Source of the DNA: a virus
IMG/VR virus record: IMGVR_UViG_3300023313_000027
Span: 1-26,272 of that record
Length of the DNA stretch: 26,272 bases
Strand: one strand, 5' to 3'
The notes beneath the pieces are model-generated. The model made no database searches and was not told where the DNA came from. It was given only the letters and a program-made list of their open reading frames with translations. Shown here piece after piece: positions 3,065 to 11,331 of the stretch. Both the position numbers and the translations under genes were made by a program. The first letter of the stretch is position 1. Every line of letters begins with the position of its first letter.

Positions 3065-3610
3065 ATGAAAATTATTGGATTGACTGGGAAAGCACGCAGC
3101 GGCAAAGACACAACAGCCAAGTTTTTACAATCTAAACTTCATAACGCATCGCTATATGCTCTTGCTGATCCATTGAAGCAAGCAGCAGCAACCATGTTCA
3201 ACATTTCATTGTCTGATTTCTATGACGCCGAACGAAAAGAAGAAATCAATCAATTCTGGGGAATGTCGCCAAGAGAAATCGCACAAAAGTTGGGAACCGA
3301 ATGTGCGCGCGACGTTTTTCGTGAGGATTTTTGGCTCAAGCGTTGTGAAAGCCAGTTGTTGGACGATCCCGACTATTTCATCATCACCGATGTTCGCTTT
3401 GACAATGAAGCAGCATGGGTTCGTGAGCGTGGCGGATTTGTTGTCGAGATTGTCCGACCATCGCTCAATTCTGGTGTCGTTCGAGATCATGTTTCGGAAG
3501 CCGGTGTTTCCGACGATTTGATTGATCTAACAATCGTGAATGACAAAGATTTGACGCATCTTGAAAACCAAGTCAATCATTTCATTGAACATTTTTTGGG
3601 GAAAGCATGA
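3065..3610 (+). CDS. 1: Deoxynucleoside monophosphate kinase (T4 gp1-like)
   Basis: Phosphorylates dNMPs to dNDPs for phage DNA synthesis. 181 aa; T4 gp1 is longer (241 aa). The P-loop GKARSGKD is at residues 8-15. FGMSPREIAQKLGTECAR-like sequence (here WGMSPREIAQKLGTECARD, ~61) is the conserved substrate region of the T4 family, followed by ITDVRFDNEA (~107), the Walker-B like strand and DVRF motif. ATG 3065 is preferred over upstream GTG 3059 because GGAGGT ends 4 nt before it. The stop overlaps the polymerase ATG (ATGA), so the two are co-translated from the strong promoter at 3017-3045. Confidence 0.9.
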   Translation: MKIIGLTGKARSGKDTTAKFLQSKLHNASLYALADPLKQAAATMFNISLSDFYDAERKEEINQFWGMSPREIAQKLGTECARDVFREDFWLKRCESQLLDDPDYFIITDVRFDNEAAWVRERGGFVVEIVRPSLNSGVVRDHVSEAGVSDDLIDLTIVNDKDLTHLENQVNHFIEHFLGKA

Positions 3611-5136
3611 GCTTTTATACATCCGTTATTCCTTACGGCAACTATATTTTGTTGCGCGAAGTCGATGATTTTGGGAATCGCGTTCAGCGGCGAATCAAGG
3701 GATTTGCTCCCGAACTGTTTTTGCCGACAAACGACCCAAGTAAAGCTGTAGCAGAATCAATCGACGGAACAAAACTAACAAAGTGTCAAGATATTGACAC
3801 GATCAGCAAAGCGAAAGAGTTTGTTTACAACTATAGAGACGTTGAAGATTTCGACGTTTATGGCACAACCAATTGGGCAATTCAATTTATTTTGTCCAAT
3901 TATCCAGATCAAATCGAATTCGATTCGTCAAAAATTCGCATCTTCAACGTCGATATTGAGGTGTATGCTAAGGATTCATTTCCGCATCCAGAAGATGCTG
4001 TTTATCCGATCAATTTGATTCAGTTGATCGATTCTGACGATCCTTCAACTGTTCGTGTATGGGGAACTGGCACAATCGAACCAATCCCCGACACCATTTA
4101 TACCCAATGCCACGATGAACAGGAATTATTGTTAAAATTCCTCGAATACTGGGAATCGAATTGTCCCGATGTTCTAACTGGTTGGAATATCAAGGGCTTT
4201 GACGTGCCCTATATTTGTAACCGCCTAAAAACATTGTTCGGCGAAGCAACCATGTCTCGCTTGTCTCCTTGGAAGAACGTTAGAGAGACGAACTATCGAA
4301 ACGATTTCGGACAACAGCAAATGACACACTTGATTGATGGTGTTTCTGTTCTCGATTATTTGGATTTGTACAAGAAATACACCTATACCAACCAAGAATC
4401 ATATACGCTAGATCATATCGGGCATGTCGAACTAAAGGAGCGGAAAGTTGACTATTCCGAAATCGGCACACTTCATGGGTTGTGTGACACCAACTATCAA
4501 AAATTCGTTGAATATGGCGTGAAAGACGTTCGATTGGTTCAACGTTTGGACGATAAAATGAAGTTGCTTGACTTGGTTTTCACCATCGCATACATGACTA
4601 AGCAAAACTACACCGATACTTTTTCTCCAGTGAAAACTTGGGAAACCTTGATTTATACCAAGTTGCGCCATGAAGGGCGCTATACAAAGATCAAGACGAA
4701 AAACGATAATGTTCGCCATAGGAAAATTGCAGGCGCTTATGTTCAGCAACCAGAAACGGGAAAGATGCGCAGATGGGTGTTGTCTTTCGATTTGAACAGT
4801 CTATATCCCCACCTCATCATGCAGTACAACATTGGATTTGAAACCATGCGAAACAAAGACCCAAATTATATTGCTCCGAGCTTTGATGGTGGCGATTTGC
4901 GTCTGAATGATTTGGAAAAGTTGGTTGTTGCCGAATTTGACACGAGCTACGCTAAAGAACAATGTTGTTCGATGACAGCAAGTGGTTTTTTGTTTGATAA
5001 CAGCAAACAAAGCATCTTGTCCGAATTCATGGAATCTATCTATTTTGGGCGAAAACAGACCAAGAAAGAAATGCTTAGATTGTCGCAGATTAGAGAAGAA
5101 GTCAAAAACGAAATGACTAGACGAGGTTTGATGTGA
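3607..5136 (+). CDS. 43A: DNA polymerase gp43, N-terminal fragment (exonuclease plus palm motif A)
   Basis: Family B replicative polymerase, first half, 509 aa. Exo I NVDIEV has D116 and E118 (T4: D112/E114). Exo II is NIKGFDVPYICN (~195) and Exo III YGVKDVRLV (~300). Polymerase motif A is DLNSLYPHLIMQYN starting at D395. The chain ends in the fingers with FGRKQTKKEML and NEMTRRGLM. Motifs B and C are missing here and present in the gene at 6030. 509 plus 368 residues gives 877, near the 898 of T4 gp43, so almost nothing has been lost and the parts probably assemble as a two-subunit enzyme. That is known for split gp43 of some Aeromonas T4-like phages. The 3' end overlaps the convergent endonuclease gene by 20 bp. 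Confidence 0.95.
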   Translation: MSFYTSVIPYGNYILLREVDDFGNRVQRRIKGFAPELFLPTNDPSKAVAESIDGTKLTKCQDIDTISKAKEFVYNYRDVEDFDVYGTTNWAIQFILSNYPDQIEFDSSKIRIFNVDIEVYAKDSFPHPEDAVYPINLIQLIDSDDPSTVRVWGTGTIEPIPDTIYTQCHDEQELLLKFLEYWESNCPDVLTGWNIKGFDVPYICNRLKTLFGEATMSRLSPWKNVRETNYRNDFGQQQMTHLIDGVSVLDYLDLYKKYTYTNQESYTLDHIGHVELKERKVDYSEIGTLHGLCDTNYQKFVEYGVKDVRLVQRLDDKMKLLDLVFTIAYMTKQNYTDTFSPVKTWETLIYTKLRHEGRYTKIKTKNDNVRHRKIAGAYVQQPETGKMRRWVLSFDLNSLYPHLIMQYNIGFETMRNKDPNYIAPSFDGGDLRLNDLEKLVVAEFDTSYAKEQCCSMTASGFLFDNSKQSILSEFMESIYFGRKQTKKEMLRLSQIREEVKNEMTRRGLM

Positions 5137-5986
5137 TTCCTTTTTTGGATGTGTTTTCTTTTGCTAAAGTGCCGCTTGTTCCTAGAACAATTCCACGATG
5201 AGATTTGGTGCGACCTTTGATGATTTCCGAAAGGCCGACCGCAGTCAAATCCAATTGCGGAAATCTCTCCATCAATTCAATTCTCGTTCCTCTGAATGCC
5301 GTTTTTGATGGGACGTGGAAGAAATCATAGACGTTTTTGTCTGCGCTTGGATTCTTGATTCCTTTCATCGACGACCTTTGTGGTGGAACGTCTGATGTTT
5401 GAACCATCCAATTTTTACAGCAGCGATTTGGGTTTTTGATGATTAAATCAACTTCTGGGTGAGAAATGTCATAGTTGTCGATCAATTCAAACTTGGTTCC
5501 GAAGAAATGTTCTTTGGTTTCGACGTTGTAGAACAAGAAATTGACCTTGCCATATTTTGAAATGTCTCTAAGTCGGCTTTTCAATTTGTGGTTTGGTTTA
5601 GAATTCAATATCGAAAGAGAAACCGCTGCTGCTTGTTTTGCTTTATCGAACAGTCTAGCATTGACATAGCGCGGTTTCCCGTTGCGAAAATCGGTTGACA
5701 TTCTGCGCCACGCGATTGCCATTTTGTGTTCTTCTAAACCGACGCAAAATTCATAGAGCAAGTGATGAGCGACGAAATGTTCTTTTGCCGTTAGCAAGAC
5801 GATGTTTTCTTGTTTGTTTGAGCCGCCCATAGATTTTGGGAGAATGTGATGACATTCATAATAGATGAAGTTTTCGTCCGACGGCTTTAACTTTTTTCTT
5901 GCTTGACTTTTTGCTCTGGTGATGATAGCTTTGTACCACAAGAAATGCTTTGAATTTGTTTTGTGACCTAAAAATAAACGTTCCAT
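5117..5986 (-). CDS. HNH homing endonuclease inserted antisense in the polymerase gene
   Basis: 289 aa, encoded opposite to the polymerase halves it separates. The HNH core reads ECHHILPKSMGGSNKQENIV (catalytic His pair 46-47, Asn 61) followed by LLTAKEHFVAHHLL (His 70, 74, 75). The N-terminal MERLFLGHKTNSKHFLWYKAII is typical of phage HNH endonucleases. The C-terminal part contains two repeats of the type F(F/Y)NV..KEHFFGTKFELIDNY and FFHVPSKTAFRGTRIELMERF, probably DNA-binding modules. ATG 5986 is chosen because a late promoter motif ends 6 nt upstream; frame extension to 6181 would run into the polymerase C-fragment. There is no Shine-Dalgarno. Expected role: self-propagation by cutting uninterrupted gene 43. 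Confidence 0.88.
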   Translation of the reverse strand: MERLFLGHKTNSKHFLWYKAIITRAKSQARKKLKPSDENFIYYECHHILPKSMGGSNKQENIVLLTAKEHFVAHHLLYEFCVGLEEHKMAIAWRRMSTDFRNGKPRYVNARLFDKAKQAAAVSLSILNSKPNHKLKSRLRDISKYGKVNFLFYNVETKEHFFGTKFELIDNYDISHPEVDLIIKNPNRCCKNWMVQTSDVPPQRSSMKGIKNPSADKNVYDFFHVPSKTAFRGTRIELMERFPQLDLTAVGLSEIIKGRTKSHRGIVLGTSGTLAKENTSKKGITSNLV

Positions 5987-5991
5987 ATTGT

Positions 5992-5999
5992 TATTTATG
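5992..5999 (-). promoter_or_regulatory. Late promoter (CATAAATA) for the HNH endonuclease
   Basis: On the minus strand CATAAATA is followed by ACAAT and then the ATG. It resembles the T4 gp55-dependent TATAAATA. Its position implies a leaderless or almost leaderless mRNA. T4 homing endonuclease genes are also often placed under late promoters. Confidence 0.65.
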
Positions 6000-6029
6000 G
6001 TTTTTGAAAATCGATTTCGGGAGAAATAG

Positions 6030-7136
6030 ATGGTGGATAATTTGAATAATTTGAATAATTTGACTGATGACGAACTGCGCGAAAAATATGACGAGTTGGG
6101 GAAGAAAATCGTTGCTCTGGATAATGAGCAATTGGCAAAAAAAACGTTATTAAACAGTTGCTTTGGTGGATTTGGTAACAAATACTTTCAATTCTTTGAC
6201 CCAAATCTAGCAGAATCAATAACTTTATCTGGCCAGCTATCTTTACAGTGGATCACAAGAAAGCTGAATGAGTATTTTTCAAAAATCCTAAAAACACAAG
6301 ATAAATTAGTCATTTATGGCGATACGGATTCCGTCTATCTAGAATTATCGCCGATTGTTGATGCTTGTTGTGATGGTATGACCGAAGAACAGGTCGTCAA
6401 TTTCCTAGATCAATTAGCGAAAGAACAAATCGAGCCGATCATCGACAAAGCATATCAAGAACTCGCTGAATACATGAACGCATACGATCAAAAAATGTCA
6501 ATGAAGCGCGAAGCGATTTCGTCTTGTGGTTTTTGGAGTGGTAAGAAACGCTATGCTCTATTAGTACACGATAACGAAGGCGTTAGATATGCTGAACCGA
6601 AATTGAAAATCATGGGATTGGAAATCGTCAAATCGTCCACACCGGAAGCAGTCCGTGATGATTTGAAGAAGTTGGTCAAAGTCATGTTGACCGATGGCGA
6701 AACTGCAGCACAAAAATTCATTGAGGAAGTGAAAAAGAAGTTTTTTTCGTTGTCCGTTGAAGATATTGCTTCGCCTCGTGGCGTGAACAACTTGGAAAAA
6801 TTTGTTGATTCGTCTGGCAATTACAAGAGCGGGATTCCGATTCATGTGAGAGCAGCACACAACTACAATAAAATGGTGGATCGAACTGGCATTGTTGCCG
6901 AAAAAATCAAATCTGGCGACAAGATCAAATTTGTCAAGCTCAAGACACCAAACCCGTTGTGTCAAAACGTCATTGCTTTTCCGAGCCATTTGGGTTTGCC
7001 GGACGAATTTGGCTTGAAAGATTACGTCGATTATGCTACAATTTACGATCAAGTGTTTTTGTCTCCGGCAAAAGCAATGTTGGATGCGGTGAAATGGGAA
7101 GCAGAGAAACAGATCACGCTGGAAGATTTCTTTTGA
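6030..7136 (+). CDS. 43B: DNA polymerase gp43, C-terminal fragment (motifs B and C, thumb)
   Basis: Second half of the family B polymerase, 368 aa. It starts in the fingers (LTDDELREKYDELGKKIVAL), then motif B KKTLLNSCFGGFGN (38-50), motif C YGDTDSVY with the catalytic Asp pair (~96-103), KKRYALLV (the KxY motif, ~165) and the thumb. The C-terminal DAVKWEAEKQITLEDFF (ends LEDFF) looks like the sliding-clamp binding peptide of T4 gp43 (C-terminus ...LFDMFDF). GGGAGA at 6019-6024 lies 5 nt before ATG 6030, so it has its own good ribosome binding site. A short 9-bp repeat codes for the Asn-Leu rich start. An intact clamp-binding tail and catalytic site suggest the split enzyme is active. Confidence 0.95.
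   Translation: MVDNLNNLNNLTDDELREKYDELGKKIVALDNEQLAKKTLLNSCFGGFGNKYFQFFDPNLAESITLSGQLSLQWITRKLNEYFSKILKTQDKLVIYGDTDSVYLELSPIVDACCDGMTEEQVVNFLDQLAKEQIEPIIDKAYQELAEYMNAYDQKMSMKREAISSCGFWSGKKRYALLVHDNEGVRYAEPKLKIMGLEIVKSSTPEAVRDDLKKLVKVMLTDGETAAQKFIEEVKKKFFSLSVEDIASPRGVNNLEKFVDSSGNYKSGIPIHVRAAHNYNKMVDRTGIVAEKIKSGDKIKFVKLKTPNPLCQNVIAFPSHLGLPDEFGLKDYVDYATIYDQVFLSPAKAMLDAVKWEAEKQITLEDFF
6041..6063 (+). repeat. Short tandem repeat at the start of 43B
   Basis: TTTGAATAA is present at 6041-6049 and 6050-6058, with a partial third copy TTTGA at 6059-6063. It encodes alternating Leu/Asn residues (NLNNLNNL). It marks the edge of the endonuclease insertion and may be a slippage product at the site of past cleavage and repair. 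Confidence 0.6.
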
Positions 7137-7707: not shown

Positions 7708-8721
7708 GTGGCAGCATATTGGATTGATAAAAAGGGAAATTTCGTCGAATCAAGAGATAACCATATCATAATGATTATCTCTCATCCAGAACGTTTTGGC
7801 TTCACTAAAAAGAAAGTCGAAGATACATATAACAAATATGGCGAAGTCATTGGTTCGGAAGGCAAAGCACGGCGCGAATTGATTGATGACGTCATTTCAC
7901 GCGGCTTCATTCGCATTCGCCTATATCCTAGAAGTCATTGGTCGATCACGATCGGCAAATTTGATTCGCGTACCAGAAGTTTGGTGACTGAATTTGCGAA
8001 CAAAATTGTCAACAAAAAGATTGATCCGGGTCTGGGTGGCAAAGATGTGTATATGCCAGTGAAGCTCGTAGCAGTTAAATCGAGACAAGAAAACAAAAAA
8101 TACACCATTAAGGATATTGCTGATGGTGTGTTGTTGACGGGGGAGCCAGTGGTTGAAACTTTGAATTTAATGACGTTTGATGAATTTTTGAACGAAAGCT
8201 CGCTATCGAGAGTGTGGCAGCATTTCACCAACAACGAAAAGACGGTCGTTATTTTGACCGCTTTCCGTGATGAAAAGACAAGGGAAGAAAATTTGCGTGG
8301 CAATAAAGCCATTGCTGCTAGTTTGAAGAATGCCGGTTTTGGTTATTTCTTTGTTGAAGGACACTACACCGAAAACAAAGGAACAGAAGATGAAGTGAAG
8401 GTCAAAGAAGAATCGATCTTTGCTATTGCGGAAAAGAACAAGTCAAGAAACTTGATCGAACTAGCACACAAGCTGGCTAATAAATATAATCAAGATTCGA
8501 TTTTCGTGAAAGAAGGTCTTGGCGATAAAAGTCGAGTTTACTTTTACACGAAGAAAGGCACGAAAGACAAGATCGACGGCAAATTGTCGCTTGGCAAAGT
8601 TGGTGAGTTTTACACCAAGCTGAACAACAAAAAACGAGCGAACACGTTTGTCTTTGAAAGTGCTACTACTGGCAGCGGATTTTTCGCTCGCCATAGAAAA
8701 AGTTTGACGGGGATGAAATAG
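7708..8721 (+). CDS. Two-part late protein: N-domain, internal capsid-targeting-like motif, DUF3293-like domain
   Basis: 337 aa. It starts at GTG 7708 with GGGAG at 7697-7701. Residues 1-150 form an unrecognised basic alpha/beta domain (SHPERFGFTKKKVEDTYNKYGE). At residue 155 comes MTFDEFLNESS, a close match to the T4 capsid-targeting peptide with a gp21-type cleavage site (LNE|S). Residues ~172-300 (VVILTAFRDEKTREENLRGN, then AIAASLKNAGFGYF, then EESIFAIAE, then LAHKLANKYNQDSIFV) follow the layout of DUF3293: N..N..L...L...G...EES.....A..LA...Q.A+. The domain's role is unknown. The last 13 bases, including the stop, double as the 5' end of the tmRNA. It lies between sspB and ssrA. Confidence 0.8.
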   Translation: MAAYWIDKKGNFVESRDNHIIMIISHPERFGFTKKKVEDTYNKYGEVIGSEGKARRELIDDVISRGFIRIRLYPRSHWSITIGKFDSRTRSLVTEFANKIVNKKIDPGLGGKDVYMPVKLVAVKSRQENKKYTIKDIADGVLLTGEPVVETLNLMTFDEFLNESSLSRVWQHFTNNEKTVVILTAFRDEKTREENLRGNKAIAASLKNAGFGYFFVEGHYTENKGTEDEVKVKEESIFAIAEKNKSRNLIELAHKLANKYNQDSIFVKEGLGDKSRVYFYTKKGTKDKIDGKLSLGKVGEFYTKLNNKKRANTFVFESATTGSGFFARHRKSLTGMK

Positions 8722-9057
8722 AATCGACGGTGATTCTGAATTCTTGTAAGCACGCAGGTAGGTTGACCACCTTAAACGTTGACACTGTTATAGCTGCAAA
8801 CGATACTGTAGCACTCGCACGCGCCGCGTGATGACCTTCTGGGATTGCTCGCCAATCGGCGATTCTAAGAAGGACAATTAGATTGGCTAAGGGTTTGGCC
8901 TAGTCGAACCAAACCACGAAAACTTAGACTTGAGATATGGGTTTGTATTTGCCGGTTTCGAGACCATATCAATAAACTAGGATAACCGGATAAGCGTGTA
9001 GAAAGCATGTAAGGATGGTTACCGGACTCGGAGGGCGGTACTCCGACATCTCCACCA
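8709..9057 (+). ncRNA. ssrA: Transfer-messenger RNA (tmRNA), tag ANDTVALARAA
   Basis: Rescues stalled ribosomes and adds a degradation tag. The 5' end GGGGATG (8709-8715) pairs fully with CATCTCC (9047-9053), followed by discriminator A and encoded CCA (9055-9057). The acceptor has G3.U70, the alanyl-tRNA synthetase identity pair. GAATCGACGG near the 5' end matches E. coli GGAUUCGACGGG. The resume codon GCA is at 8796. The frame reads ANDTVALARAA and ends with two TGA (8829-8834); upstream TATAGCT resembles the E. coli UAGUC resume signal. Downstream there are pseudoknot-type helices (CCTTCT/AGAAGG around TCGCC-AATC-GGCGA, and GGTTTGG/CCAAACC). The length of 349 nt fits (E. coli 363). Odd points: it overlaps the preceding CDS, and its T-arm loop (GGCGGTA between CGGAG and CTCCG) lacks the usual TTC. 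The order is standard, not permuted. Confidence 0.93.
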
Positions 9058-9077: not shown

Positions 9078-9106
9078 TTGACAAGTTGAAACGCATCCAC
9101 TATAAT
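9078..9106 (+). promoter_or_regulatory. Sigma70 promoter for the first duplicate gene
   Basis: TTGACA (9078-9083), 17-bp spacer, TATAAT (9101-9106), with an extended GCTTGACA context shared with the promoters at 9630, 10785, 13252 and 25107. Confidence 0.92.
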
Positions 9107-9135: not shown

Positions 9136-9633
9136 ATGACAGATAAAGAAAAAGCAAAAGAAATTCGAGCATTGCTGAAAAAGAAGTTCGGTCTGACTTC
9201 GCGCGATGTTAGTGTTCGTTCGCGTTCTTCGATTGATCTTGAAATCAAAACGATCAAAGCACTGATGATCAAGAGCAAAATTGAAAAGGAATCGTCGCAG
9301 TTTGAGAGAATTTTCCGCGATCATGCGACCGGCGAAATCCTTGCTGGTGGCAACACTTTTGTTTTTGTGTCTATCGAGTGGAAATTTCGCAAGAAGTTGG
9401 CTTCTGCTGTTGAAGCAGAAATTATGAGAACAACAAAGACTGGTGAATTGGAAAACGGTACAGTTGTTAAGTTGTTTGGTAAAATTGAATTGGCTAAAAC
9501 GAATCGCGGTGAATATGTTGTATCATATAAAAAAGCACACGAGTTTTTGGTTCACGATTTGAAAAGCAACACCAACTCTGTTCTCGGCTTCATCATCAAC
9601 AACGCACCCGAAGTTTTGAAAAAACTTGCTTGA
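9136..9633 (+). CDS. Unknown early protein, copy 1 of a duplicated pair
   Basis: 165 aa. Its N-terminus (KEIRALLKKKFGLTSRDVSVRS) resembles the LPD29-type domain of mobile-element proteins ('IR..LK..FP...FSVRS'), though I would not assign function from this. The central segment HATGEILAGGNTFVFVSIEW is very conserved between the two copies (165 aa each, about 60 percent identical by eye). The C-terminal half has diverged more. GGGAG precedes ATG 9136, and the sequence from that site to about codon 12 is nearly identical to the copy at 10007, so the duplication included the control region. The stop codon lies within the -35 of the next promoter. No membrane segment is seen. Confidence 0.82.
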   Translation: MTDKEKAKEIRALLKKKFGLTSRDVSVRSRSSIDLEIKTIKALMIKSKIEKESSQFERIFRDHATGEILAGGNTFVFVSIEWKFRKKLASAVEAEIMRTTKTGELENGTVVKLFGKIELAKTNRGEYVVSYKKAHEFLVHDLKSNTNSVLGFIINNAPEVLKKLA

Positions 9634-9658
9634 CAAGTGAAATCGATCGCGCTATAAT
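9630..9658 (+). promoter_or_regulatory. Sigma70 promoter for the 62-aa gene
   Basis: TTGACA (9630-9635), 17-bp spacer, TATAAT (9653-9658). The TGA inside the -35 is the stop codon of the upstream gene. Confidence 0.92.
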
Positions 9659-9888: not shown

Positions 9889-9960
9889 TTGAATGTCAAT
9901 TTTTCATTTCTGATAGCCATTGTCTTGTGGGCTTTGGCGATTTTCTTGTTGACATTATGA
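9889..9960 (+). CDS. Possible 23-aa membrane micro-protein
   Basis: A TTG-started frame (9889) with weak GGA upstream (9880-9882) encodes a short peptide, starting MNVNFSFLIAIVLWAL, almost entirely hydrophobic, consistent with one membrane-spanning helix. It lies downstream of the 62-aa gene and its 3' end overlaps the -35 of the next promoter. The unusual start and small size make this uncertain; a chance open frame is a real alternative. Confidence 0.3.
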   Translation: MNVNFSFLIAIVLWALAIFLLTL

Positions 9961-9977
9961 TTTCTAAATGCTATGAT
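9949..9977 (+). promoter_or_regulatory. Sigma70 promoter for the second duplicate gene
   Basis: TTGACA (9949-9954), 17-bp spacer, TATGAT (9972-9977). Confidence 0.85.
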
Positions 9978-10006: not shown

Positions 10007-10504
10007 ATGACAGACAAAGAAAAAGCAAAAGAAATTCGTGCGCTGCTGAAAAAGGACTTCGGGTTGACAGCTCGTGATGTTAGCGTTCGTTCGACTTCTT
10101 CGATCAATTTGAACATCAAGACCGCGAAAGCTCTTGCTCTAAGGGAAAAGATCAAAAAGGCTGTAGCAAAATTCGAGCGAGTTTTTCGTGATCATGTTAC
10201 CGGAGAAATCCTTGCTGGCGGCAACACTTTTGTTTTTGTGTCGATTGATTGGAGTTTTCACAAGAAGTTGACCGAAGCAATCAAGAAAGAGCTTGATCGC
10301 GTTGTCGGCAGCGGTGAAATGGAAGATGGTACAGTTGTCAAGCTGTTCGGTAAAATCGATTTGTCAAAATATAATGGCGTTTATAGCATCAAGTATCGTA
10401 ACGAACGTAAACTTTTGCGCAACGATGTTTTGCGTTACAACTTGGATGAAATTTTGGAGTTCACCGCAAATAGCGCAACTAGCGTCTTGAAACAGTTTGC
10501 TTGA
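10007..10504 (+). CDS. Unknown early protein, copy 2 of a duplicated pair
   Basis: 165 aa, a paralogue of the gene at 9136 with the same length, same start (MTDKEKAKEIRALLKK), the same conserved core (GEILAGGNTFVFVSI then W) and the same ending pattern (VLK then LA). The region around the start, with GGGAGTGAATTAA before ATG, is copied too. Differences cluster in the middle helix and C-terminus, where copy 2 reads YSIKYRNERKLLRNDV. Function unknown. It is followed by a gene that overlaps its stop (TGATG), which copy 1 lacks. Confidence 0.82.
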   Translation: MTDKEKAKEIRALLKKDFGLTARDVSVRSTSSINLNIKTAKALALREKIKKAVAKFERVFRDHVTGEILAGGNTFVFVSIDWSFHKKLTEAIKKELDRVVGSGEMEDGTVVKLFGKIDLSKYNGVYSIKYRNERKLLRNDVLRYNLDEILEFTANSATSVLKQFA

Positions 10505-10784: not shown

Positions 10785-10813
10785 TTGACATGAACGTTTA
10801 GATGATGTAGAAT
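10785..10813 (+). promoter_or_regulatory. Sigma70 promoter of the stable-RNA region
   Basis: TTGACA (10785-10790), 17-bp spacer, TAGAAT (10808-10813), in the GCTTGACA context. The transcript would start near 10820 and run into the hairpin region, the three tRNAs and probably the porin gene, since no terminator is seen before 12386. Confidence 0.85.
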
Positions 10814-11047
10814 TCGATTTGTTGAAACGGTGAGCAAAAACTCACCATCGGTGAAAAGCCGTAAAATGTTAAAGACTCCTCGACGTCTTCCTCCCGCGTC
10901 GAGTTGAGCGTCGGCCAGCGCGACGATCATGCGCCTCCCCGTTGCTGAATAGAAGCAACAAAGACGAGATATTGGACTCTGGGCCGGACAGTTTGTAAAA
11001 TGATAAGATAAAAATTTTGATCGGTTTAGAACACGACAAATAGTTTT
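10814..11047 (+). ncRNA. Candidate structured small RNA with anti-Shine-Dalgarno-like loop
   Basis: No convincing coding frame. Consecutive hairpins can be seen: GGTGAG/CTCACC (10829-10846), CTCGACG/CGTCGAG (10879-10903) with loop TCTTCCTCCCG, CGTCG/CGACG (10909-10925), then unpaired GCGCCTCCCC (10931-10940), then GTTGCT/AGCAAC (10941-10959). The loop UCCUCCC and the unpaired CCUCCCC are complementary to Shine-Dalgarno sequences. This resembles bacterial sRNAs carrying CCUCC loops that block translation initiation. It begins right at a strong promoter and ends at the 5' end of an initiator tRNA. It might instead be only a processed tRNA leader. Confidence 0.5.
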
Positions 11048-11123
11048 CGCGGTGTGGACAAATGGTTAAGTCGTCGGGTTCATGTCCCGAAGATTGGTGG
11101 TTCGATTCCACCCACCGCTACCA
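11048..11123 (+). tRNA. Initiator tRNA-fMet (CAU)
   Basis: 76 nt with encoded CCA. It folds as a cloverleaf: acceptor 2-7/66-71 paired, T-stem GGTGG/CCACC with loop TTCGATT, anticodon stem TCGGG/CCCGA with loop TTCATGT. All three bacterial initiator features are visible: position 1 C is unpaired with U72 (C1xU72, as C1xA72 in E. coli), A11-U24 in the D stem (GAC/GTC), and three consecutive G-C pairs (GGG/CCC) at the base of the anticodon stem. The anticodon stem is identical to that of E. coli fMet tRNA. An elongator Met or Ile2 tRNA would not show this combination. Confidence 0.93.
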
Positions 11124-11331
11124 AGTTTTGATCATCGACGGATGATCAAAGTGGCTGGCTGAATAAGCTCTCTGCAGAAGGAGCTAAAGCACTTGCTACA
11201 GGTTGTGCTGACACGATGCCGAAATCGGTGAGTGGTTCTTCGACAGAAGATAGCAAGGTTTCGCGGAAAAATGTATTTAAGGCATTCTGCTCCGTGATTG
11301 TGGGTAAAACCGAATCCCACGCCACACATAA
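11124..11331 (+). other. Structured untranslated spacer between tRNA-fMet and tRNA-Thr
   Basis: Starts with a 10-bp hairpin, TTTGATCATC/GATGATCAAA with a GACG loop (11127-11150), without T-tract. Then GTGGC (11151-11155) can close with GCCAC (11321-11325) around further stems: AGCTC/GAGCT (11166-11185), AGCAC/GTGCT (11188-11209) and GTGGG/CCCAC (11300-11320). This is an ordered set of nested helices, so an unknown structured RNA or processing element is possible. One plus frame stays open across it but lacks a usable start. I do not recognise the element. Confidence 0.45.

Follow-up and report, generated by a model that had tools for sequence, protein, structure and literature searches.

An initiator-type tRNA gene with an altered anticodon loop in a T4-like virus fragment, and its possible role in escape from host nucleases

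The purpose of phage tRNAs has been a matter of debate for decades. Since an initiator tRNA acts only at the start of translation and compensation for codon usage does not apply to it, it offers a clean case in which to ask why a virus carries a tRNA gene. The question is raised here by a T4-like fragment of 26,272 bp, a whole virus record (the window), which encodes a tRNA-fMet with an abnormal anticodon loop. Neither tRNAs nor initiator-type tRNAs are new to phages, and the idea of nuclease escape is also already known.

A tRNA-Met(CAU) was placed at 11048-11123 both by ARAGORN and by Rfam (RF00005, 60.2 bits). Its sequence is CGCGGUG-UG-GAC...GUC-G-UCGGG-UUCAUGU-CCCGA-...-CACCGCU-A-CCA. The acceptor stem displays a C1/U72 mismatch, with G2:C71, C3:G70 and G4:C69 paired, and the D-stem is 3 bp long (G10:C25, A11:U24, C12:G23), with an A13.A22 mismatch absent from the original prediction. 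The anticodon stem, UCGGG/CCCGA, has the pairs G29:C41, G30:C40 and G31:C39 and presents the anticodon CAU; the 3′ end consists of A73 and an encoded CCA. RNAfold gives -28 kcal/mol (z -1.9), and the acceptor, anticodon and T stems form. Bacterial initiators are characterized by the lack of a strong 1:72 pair and by the pairs on which formylation relies, 2:71, 3:70 and 11:24, as given in the accessible part of a review (PMC11231383). In the window tRNA, position 1:72 is the C1/U72 mismatch, and G2:C71, C3:G70 and A11:U24 are all present. The CUCAUAA loop, which is near-invariant in bacteria and is not a listed functional determinant, is absent, and UUCAUGU is found instead. The C1xU72 mismatch, A11-U24 and three anticodon-stem G-C pairs from which the initiator identity had originally been predicted are thus all seen in the gene, and on its sequence it is confirmed as a complete, CCA-encoding initiator-type tRNA(CAU).

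Table 1. Positions of the tRNA-fMet gene, its anticodon arm and the neighboring RNA features in the window.
Feature	Position	Strand	Basis
Phage-encoded tmRNA (RF00023)	8709-9057	+	Rfam 109.1 bits; missed by ARAGORN
Sigma-70-type promoter-like element TTGACA-17-TAGAAT (putative)	10785..10813	+	Consensus scan, 11/12 matches
Initiator-type tRNA-fMet(CAU), CCA encoded	11048..11123	+	ARAGORN, Rfam, models R1/R2
Anticodon stem, 5′ side, UCGGG with G29 G30 G31	11074..11078	+	Sequence
Anticodon loop UUCAUGU; G37 = 11084, U38 = 11085	11079..11085	+	Sequence, bacterial baseline, viral sample
Anticodon stem, 3′ side, CCCGA with C39 C40 C41	11086..11090	+	Sequence
manA RNA (RF01745), between tRNA-fMet and tRNA-Thr	11129..11330	+	Rfam 90 bits
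tRNA-Thr(UGU), ordinary loop	11332..11407	+	ARAGORN
tRNA-Asn(GUU), ordinary loop	11497..11571	+	ARAGORN

Two covariance models were built from fetched loci and stand in for the tRNAscan-SE isotype models. Model R1 holds 44 initiator-type tRNAs from 104 usable references, the window's own excluded; every second reference was taken, and eight odd ones were then taken out by hand. Model R2 holds 26 of 36 CAU references without initiator features, after removal of five with an unpaired 1:72 and, by hand, of three initiator-like sequences and two near-duplicates. The window tRNA-fMet scores 71.8 bits with R1 and 60.8 bits with R2, a preference for the initiator model of 11 bits that is partly built in, because the R1 references were gathered by a pattern demanding the GGG/CCC stem. 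An identity as elongator Met or Ile (k2C), named beforehand as the isotype call that would overturn the identification, is unlikely. As controls, the window's tRNA-Thr scores 49.7 (R1) and 64.4 (R2) and its tRNA-Asn 58.8 and 59.2. The tRNA-Met pair of Erwinia phage pEa_SNUABM_44 separates into an initiator-like member (78.0 with R1, 63.4 with R2) and an elongator-like member (64.4 and 81.3).

A scan of viral contigs with a pattern combining the anticodon arm of initiators and the T-loop yielded at least 120 loci, some of which may be host flanks, and an ARAGORN-confirmed CAU tRNA with GGG/CCC is present in 112 of 120. The loop counts below use these 112 tRNAs, the eight loci without a confirmed tRNA being excluded. 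In a blastn search with one viral initiator, 429 of 50,697 phage records match; many are annotated only as tRNA-Met, and some resemble bacterial assemblies or short fragments. A tRNA-fMet is also mentioned for an Erwinia jumbo phage in the accessible part of PMC7760394. A phage initiator tRNA as such is not unusual. The surprise originally attached to a phage-borne initiator is therefore not borne out by these viral contigs and phage records, and of the original prediction the initiator identity stands, on the hallmarks and the model comparison, while its exceptional status for a phage does not; that the gene raises or replaces initiation capacity, as was also predicted, is possible.

What sets the gene apart is the loop, UU-CAU-GU against the usual bacterial CUCAUAA, a feature overlooked in the original prediction. 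The bacterial baseline comprises three genome samples (497 genomes searched, 150 matches listed per sample); the matches were counted by eye in two samples, the third was taken as equal, and three G37 rows from seed genomes, themselves chosen for a G37 match, were dropped. CTCATAA is found in 444/447 bacterial initiators among the matches listed. In the 112 phage initiators (from at least 120 viral loci), 75 have CTCATAA and 37 deviate, the commonest altered loops being TTCATAC and CTCATAT with 13 each. Position 38 is not A in 33/112 phage initiators, as compared with 2/447 bacterial initiators among the matches listed. Fisher tests against the bacterial initiators among the matches listed give 4e-25 for any loop change and 5e-23 for position 38, in rows that are related to one another and to which a genome can contribute several copies.

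The window tRNA differs from this general bacterial norm at both 37 and 38. Change at 37 is the rarer event, seen in 4/112 phage initiators, with G37 in 1/112 (from at least 120 viral loci). A G37-specific scan returned 108 viral stretches, and 79 stretches in 84,980 bacterial and archaeal species. ARAGORN confirmed G37 tRNAs in 108 of 201 viral loci examined (two viral scans together) and in 35 of the 79 loci from bacterial or archaeal genomes; several of the latter duplicate viral sequences. In a search of 45 T4-like records, no inspected CAU tRNA combines GGG/CCC with G37. Neither a G37/U38 initiator nor the contrast between an invariant bacterial and a variable phage loop was found in the literature searched, which was thin in subscription journals.

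The reading that is tentatively favored is that of a spare phage initiator whose loop would resist host anticodon-loop nucleases such as VapC. The tRNA-fMet, manA RNA, tRNA-Thr and tRNA-Asn would be cotranscribed from the putative near-consensus sigma-70-type promoter. Judging by the determinants present, the tRNA-fMet would be a substrate of the host enzymes for charging with Met, for formylation and for loading into the 30S P site. The anticodon and its stem are retained, and both changed bases, 37 and 38, belong to the 3′ part of the loop, which VapC-type nucleases attack; the altered loop would block recognition by these enzymes, and the spare initiator would keep phage translation starting once the host initiator is cleaved or limiting. 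A VapC-type enzyme of S. flexneri reportedly cleaves between 38 and 39. The accessible parts of PMC7180214 and PMC8522696 describe tRNA-cutting VapC toxins as cutting within the anticodon or on its 3′ side, and several VapCs as cutting tRNA-fMet within the anticodon stem-loop. Escape from anticodon nucleases has been put forward for phage tRNAs whose loop is altered (van den Berg et al. 2023, PMC10264068, accessible part). The window tRNA would resemble these candidate escape tRNAs if its changed loop bases lie near the cut site of a host nuclease. It differs in being an initiator, whereas S. flexneri phages generally avoid tRNA-fMet, according to the same part of that source.

In favor of nuclease escape are the 11-bit preference for R1, the initiator anatomy, the contrast between bacterial and phage initiator loops, the A37 A38 kept by most other phage elongators, the covariation of bases 32 and 38, and the ordinary loops of tRNA-Thr and tRNA-Asn in the same array. 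Against it are the rarity of G37, the avoidance of tRNA-fMet by S. flexneri phages, the lack of GGG/CCC with G37 among the CAU tRNAs inspected from T4-like records, and the variation of position 38 in phage non-initiator CAU tRNAs as well. On the sequence evidence nuclease escape appears the most likely single reading, one still far from established, and the altered bases 37 and 38 suggest a replacement for depleted tRNA and not simple dosage. Should the changes at 37 and 38 give resistance to initiator-cutting toxins, they would constitute a one-gene counter-defence that is directly testable; should they give none, this would suggest that loop positions near-invariant in bacteria can be changed without loss of the initiator body.

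A serious rival, and itself quite possible, is that the gene is a plain supplement that raises initiation capacity, its loop having drifted because the host already provides such a tRNA. Phage initiators are common, and position 38 varies about as often in the phage non-initiator CAU tRNAs, as drift would produce: the loop is not CTCATAA in 11 of 37 distinct sequences, although no change at 37 was seen in these 37. In 13 unselected loci with both CAU kinds, altered loops occur in three initiators and in the non-initiators of four loci, thus the position 38 change is not specific to initiators. Loop change as an initiator-only trait, which had also been considered, is weakened by both counts. 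Drift is countered, however, by the intact determinants of the acceptor, D-stem and anticodon stem and by the behavior of other phage elongators. For Asn, Tyr, Thr-UGU, Lys-UUU and Cys in the initiator loci, 67/72 keep A37 A38 (Fisher test against phage initiators at 37-38, 1.6e-4). Bases 32 and 38 also covary in phage initiators, which is what a loop that stays functional should show: C32 occurs with A, U and C at 38 in 75, 13 and 2 cases and U32 in 4, 2 and 15, one U32-G38 initiator being omitted from the count.

That the gene is decayed, or a non-translational tRNA-like element such as a nuclease decoy or processing punctuation before manA, is improbable. The odd loop, the 3-bp D-stem and the tight packing against manA would fit such an element, but all stems, the CCA and the initiator determinants are intact. 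Extended codon-anticodon pairing through base 37 is on record, and G37 is complementary to a C at -1, which would make the tRNA a specialized initiator that favors certain starts or pairs with a -1 C in phage messages. This is very unlikely because none of 16 picked Shine-Dalgarno-like window starts has C at -1 (A 11, T 3, G 2). An elongator tRNA-Met or a lysidine-bearing tRNA-Ile2 would share the CAU anticodon, but the mismatched 1:72, A11:U24, the GGG/CCC stem, G37 and the R2 score 11 bits below R1 leave that identity with hardly any credibility.

Nuclease escape may be extended to a broader proposal, which is speculative and rather unlikely as a whole. Phages would widely carry cut-resistant initiators, with the anticodon and stem kept and 32, 37 and 38 rewritten, and the tmRNA and tRNA-linked manA would make the region a translation-rescue island. 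If this is true, the host would destroy its own initiator to abort infection, and translation would start only on the initiator supplied by the phage.

The closest known tRNAs are the bacterial tRNA-fMet of the E. coli metZWV/metY type, parts of whose sequence are taken as general background. The window tRNA shares with it the 1:72 mismatch, the 2:71 and 3:70 pairs, the purine-pyrimidine 11:24 pair, the three G:C pairs and CAU, and many of the listed bacterial initiator matches continue GGG/CCC with CCCGAAG, as the window tRNA does. It differs in having U32, G37 and U38 instead of C32, A37 and A38, a 3-bp D-stem, and U72 instead of A72. With the phage initiator-type tRNAs (Erwinia pEa_SNUABM_44, the Caulobacter CcrColossus group, Mycobacterium phage matches) it shares its phage origin; these often lie in tRNA arrays and are mostly filed as tRNA-Met. 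Unlike the window tRNA, most sampled phage initiators keep CTCATAA, and the pEa_SNUABM_44 loop is TTCATAT. The best blastn neighbor is an initiator-like tRNA of Bacillus phage FADO (L231:1500-1575, 82%), which has a very similar D-arm, is also altered at 37/38 (CTCATTC) and scores 56.7 with R1 and 45.7 with R2, R1 being ahead by 11 bits. It differs in its other loop letters and in its stem, CUUGG/CCAAG, which has two, not three, of the G:C pairs. The FADO gene is unannotated and is overlapped by an annotated hypothetical protein.

Other initiator-like sequences were noticed. Two, L577:1500-1574 and L578:1500-1574 (from records of 225,268 and 233,234 bp), have an initiator-like acceptor and D-arm, with A11:U24 and a weak 1:72, and an anticodon stem UUAGC/GCUAA instead of GGG/CCC; their R1 scores are 78.3 and 77.2 bits. 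A third, in Erythrobacter phage vB_EliS-L02 (L233:1459-1525), combines the GGG/CCC stem with a D-arm that is very short, receives no ARAGORN call, and scores 47.0 bits with R1 and 39.7 with R2.

The tRNA-fMet is one of three tRNAs found by ARAGORN in the window, and the promoter-like element listed in Table 1 stands upstream of the RNA cluster. A structured leader between them, at 10820-11047, is unsupported (z -1.5). This element is one of four near-perfect sigma-70 promoter-like elements within 1.8 kb, the others being at 9078-9106, 9630-9658 and 9949-9977; those at 9078 and 9630 have 12/12 consensus matches.

The manA RNA is separated by 5 nt from tRNA-fMet and by 1 nt from tRNA-Thr. Rfam confirmed 10 of 11 manA-like loci submitted. 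Same-strand tRNA genes lie within 12 nt of manA in four of these ten (L493, L501, L507, L568), a tmRNA adjoins it in L497 and lies some 217 nt away in L514, and four have neither a tRNA nor a tmRNA on the locus. Five of ten matching isolate records were inspected: manA lies about 5 nt before tRNA-Gly in S-SSM7 and S-SSM6a, and before talC or hypothetical genes in P-TIM40, S-SSM4 and P-RSM1. A head-to-tail arrangement within tRNA or tmRNA clusters is found in the window (11129-11330) and in L493, L497, L501, L507, L568, L613 and L617. This repeated placement suggests that manA RNA, which is filed as cis-regulatory, is at least in part an independent, processed RNA linked to translation. Of the literature on manA, PMC2864571 and PMC9964418 discuss 5′ UTRs, and their accessible parts make no mention of adjacency to tRNAs.

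The tmRNA lies 2 kb upstream of the tRNA-fMet. Its tag, ANDTVALARAA, ends in ARAA; the familiar ending is ALAA. A blastn search of the phage collection with the tmRNA gave no match.

As to the virus itself, Pfam domains in the window include dUTPase, nuclease, Hsp20, dNMP kinase, polymerase B and a DnaB-type helicase. The nearest isolates by UvsX are Acidovorax phage ACP17 (60.8%) and Stenotrophomonas phages (about 58%). In viral contigs, UvsX identity is at most 57% over most of the query, with two partial or split matches at 62-64%. No match was obtained by blastn in an E. coli genome collection. Two similar 165-aa ORFs (9136-9633 and 10007-10504) flank a 62-aa ORF in an apparent duplication, and a Pfam search with the first of them (9136-9633) gave no match. 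The family B DNA polymerase is apparently split between two ORFs (3607-7136), and the gap holds a minus-strand ORF of 354 aa (5117-6181), on visual inspection similar to an HNH homing endonuclease.
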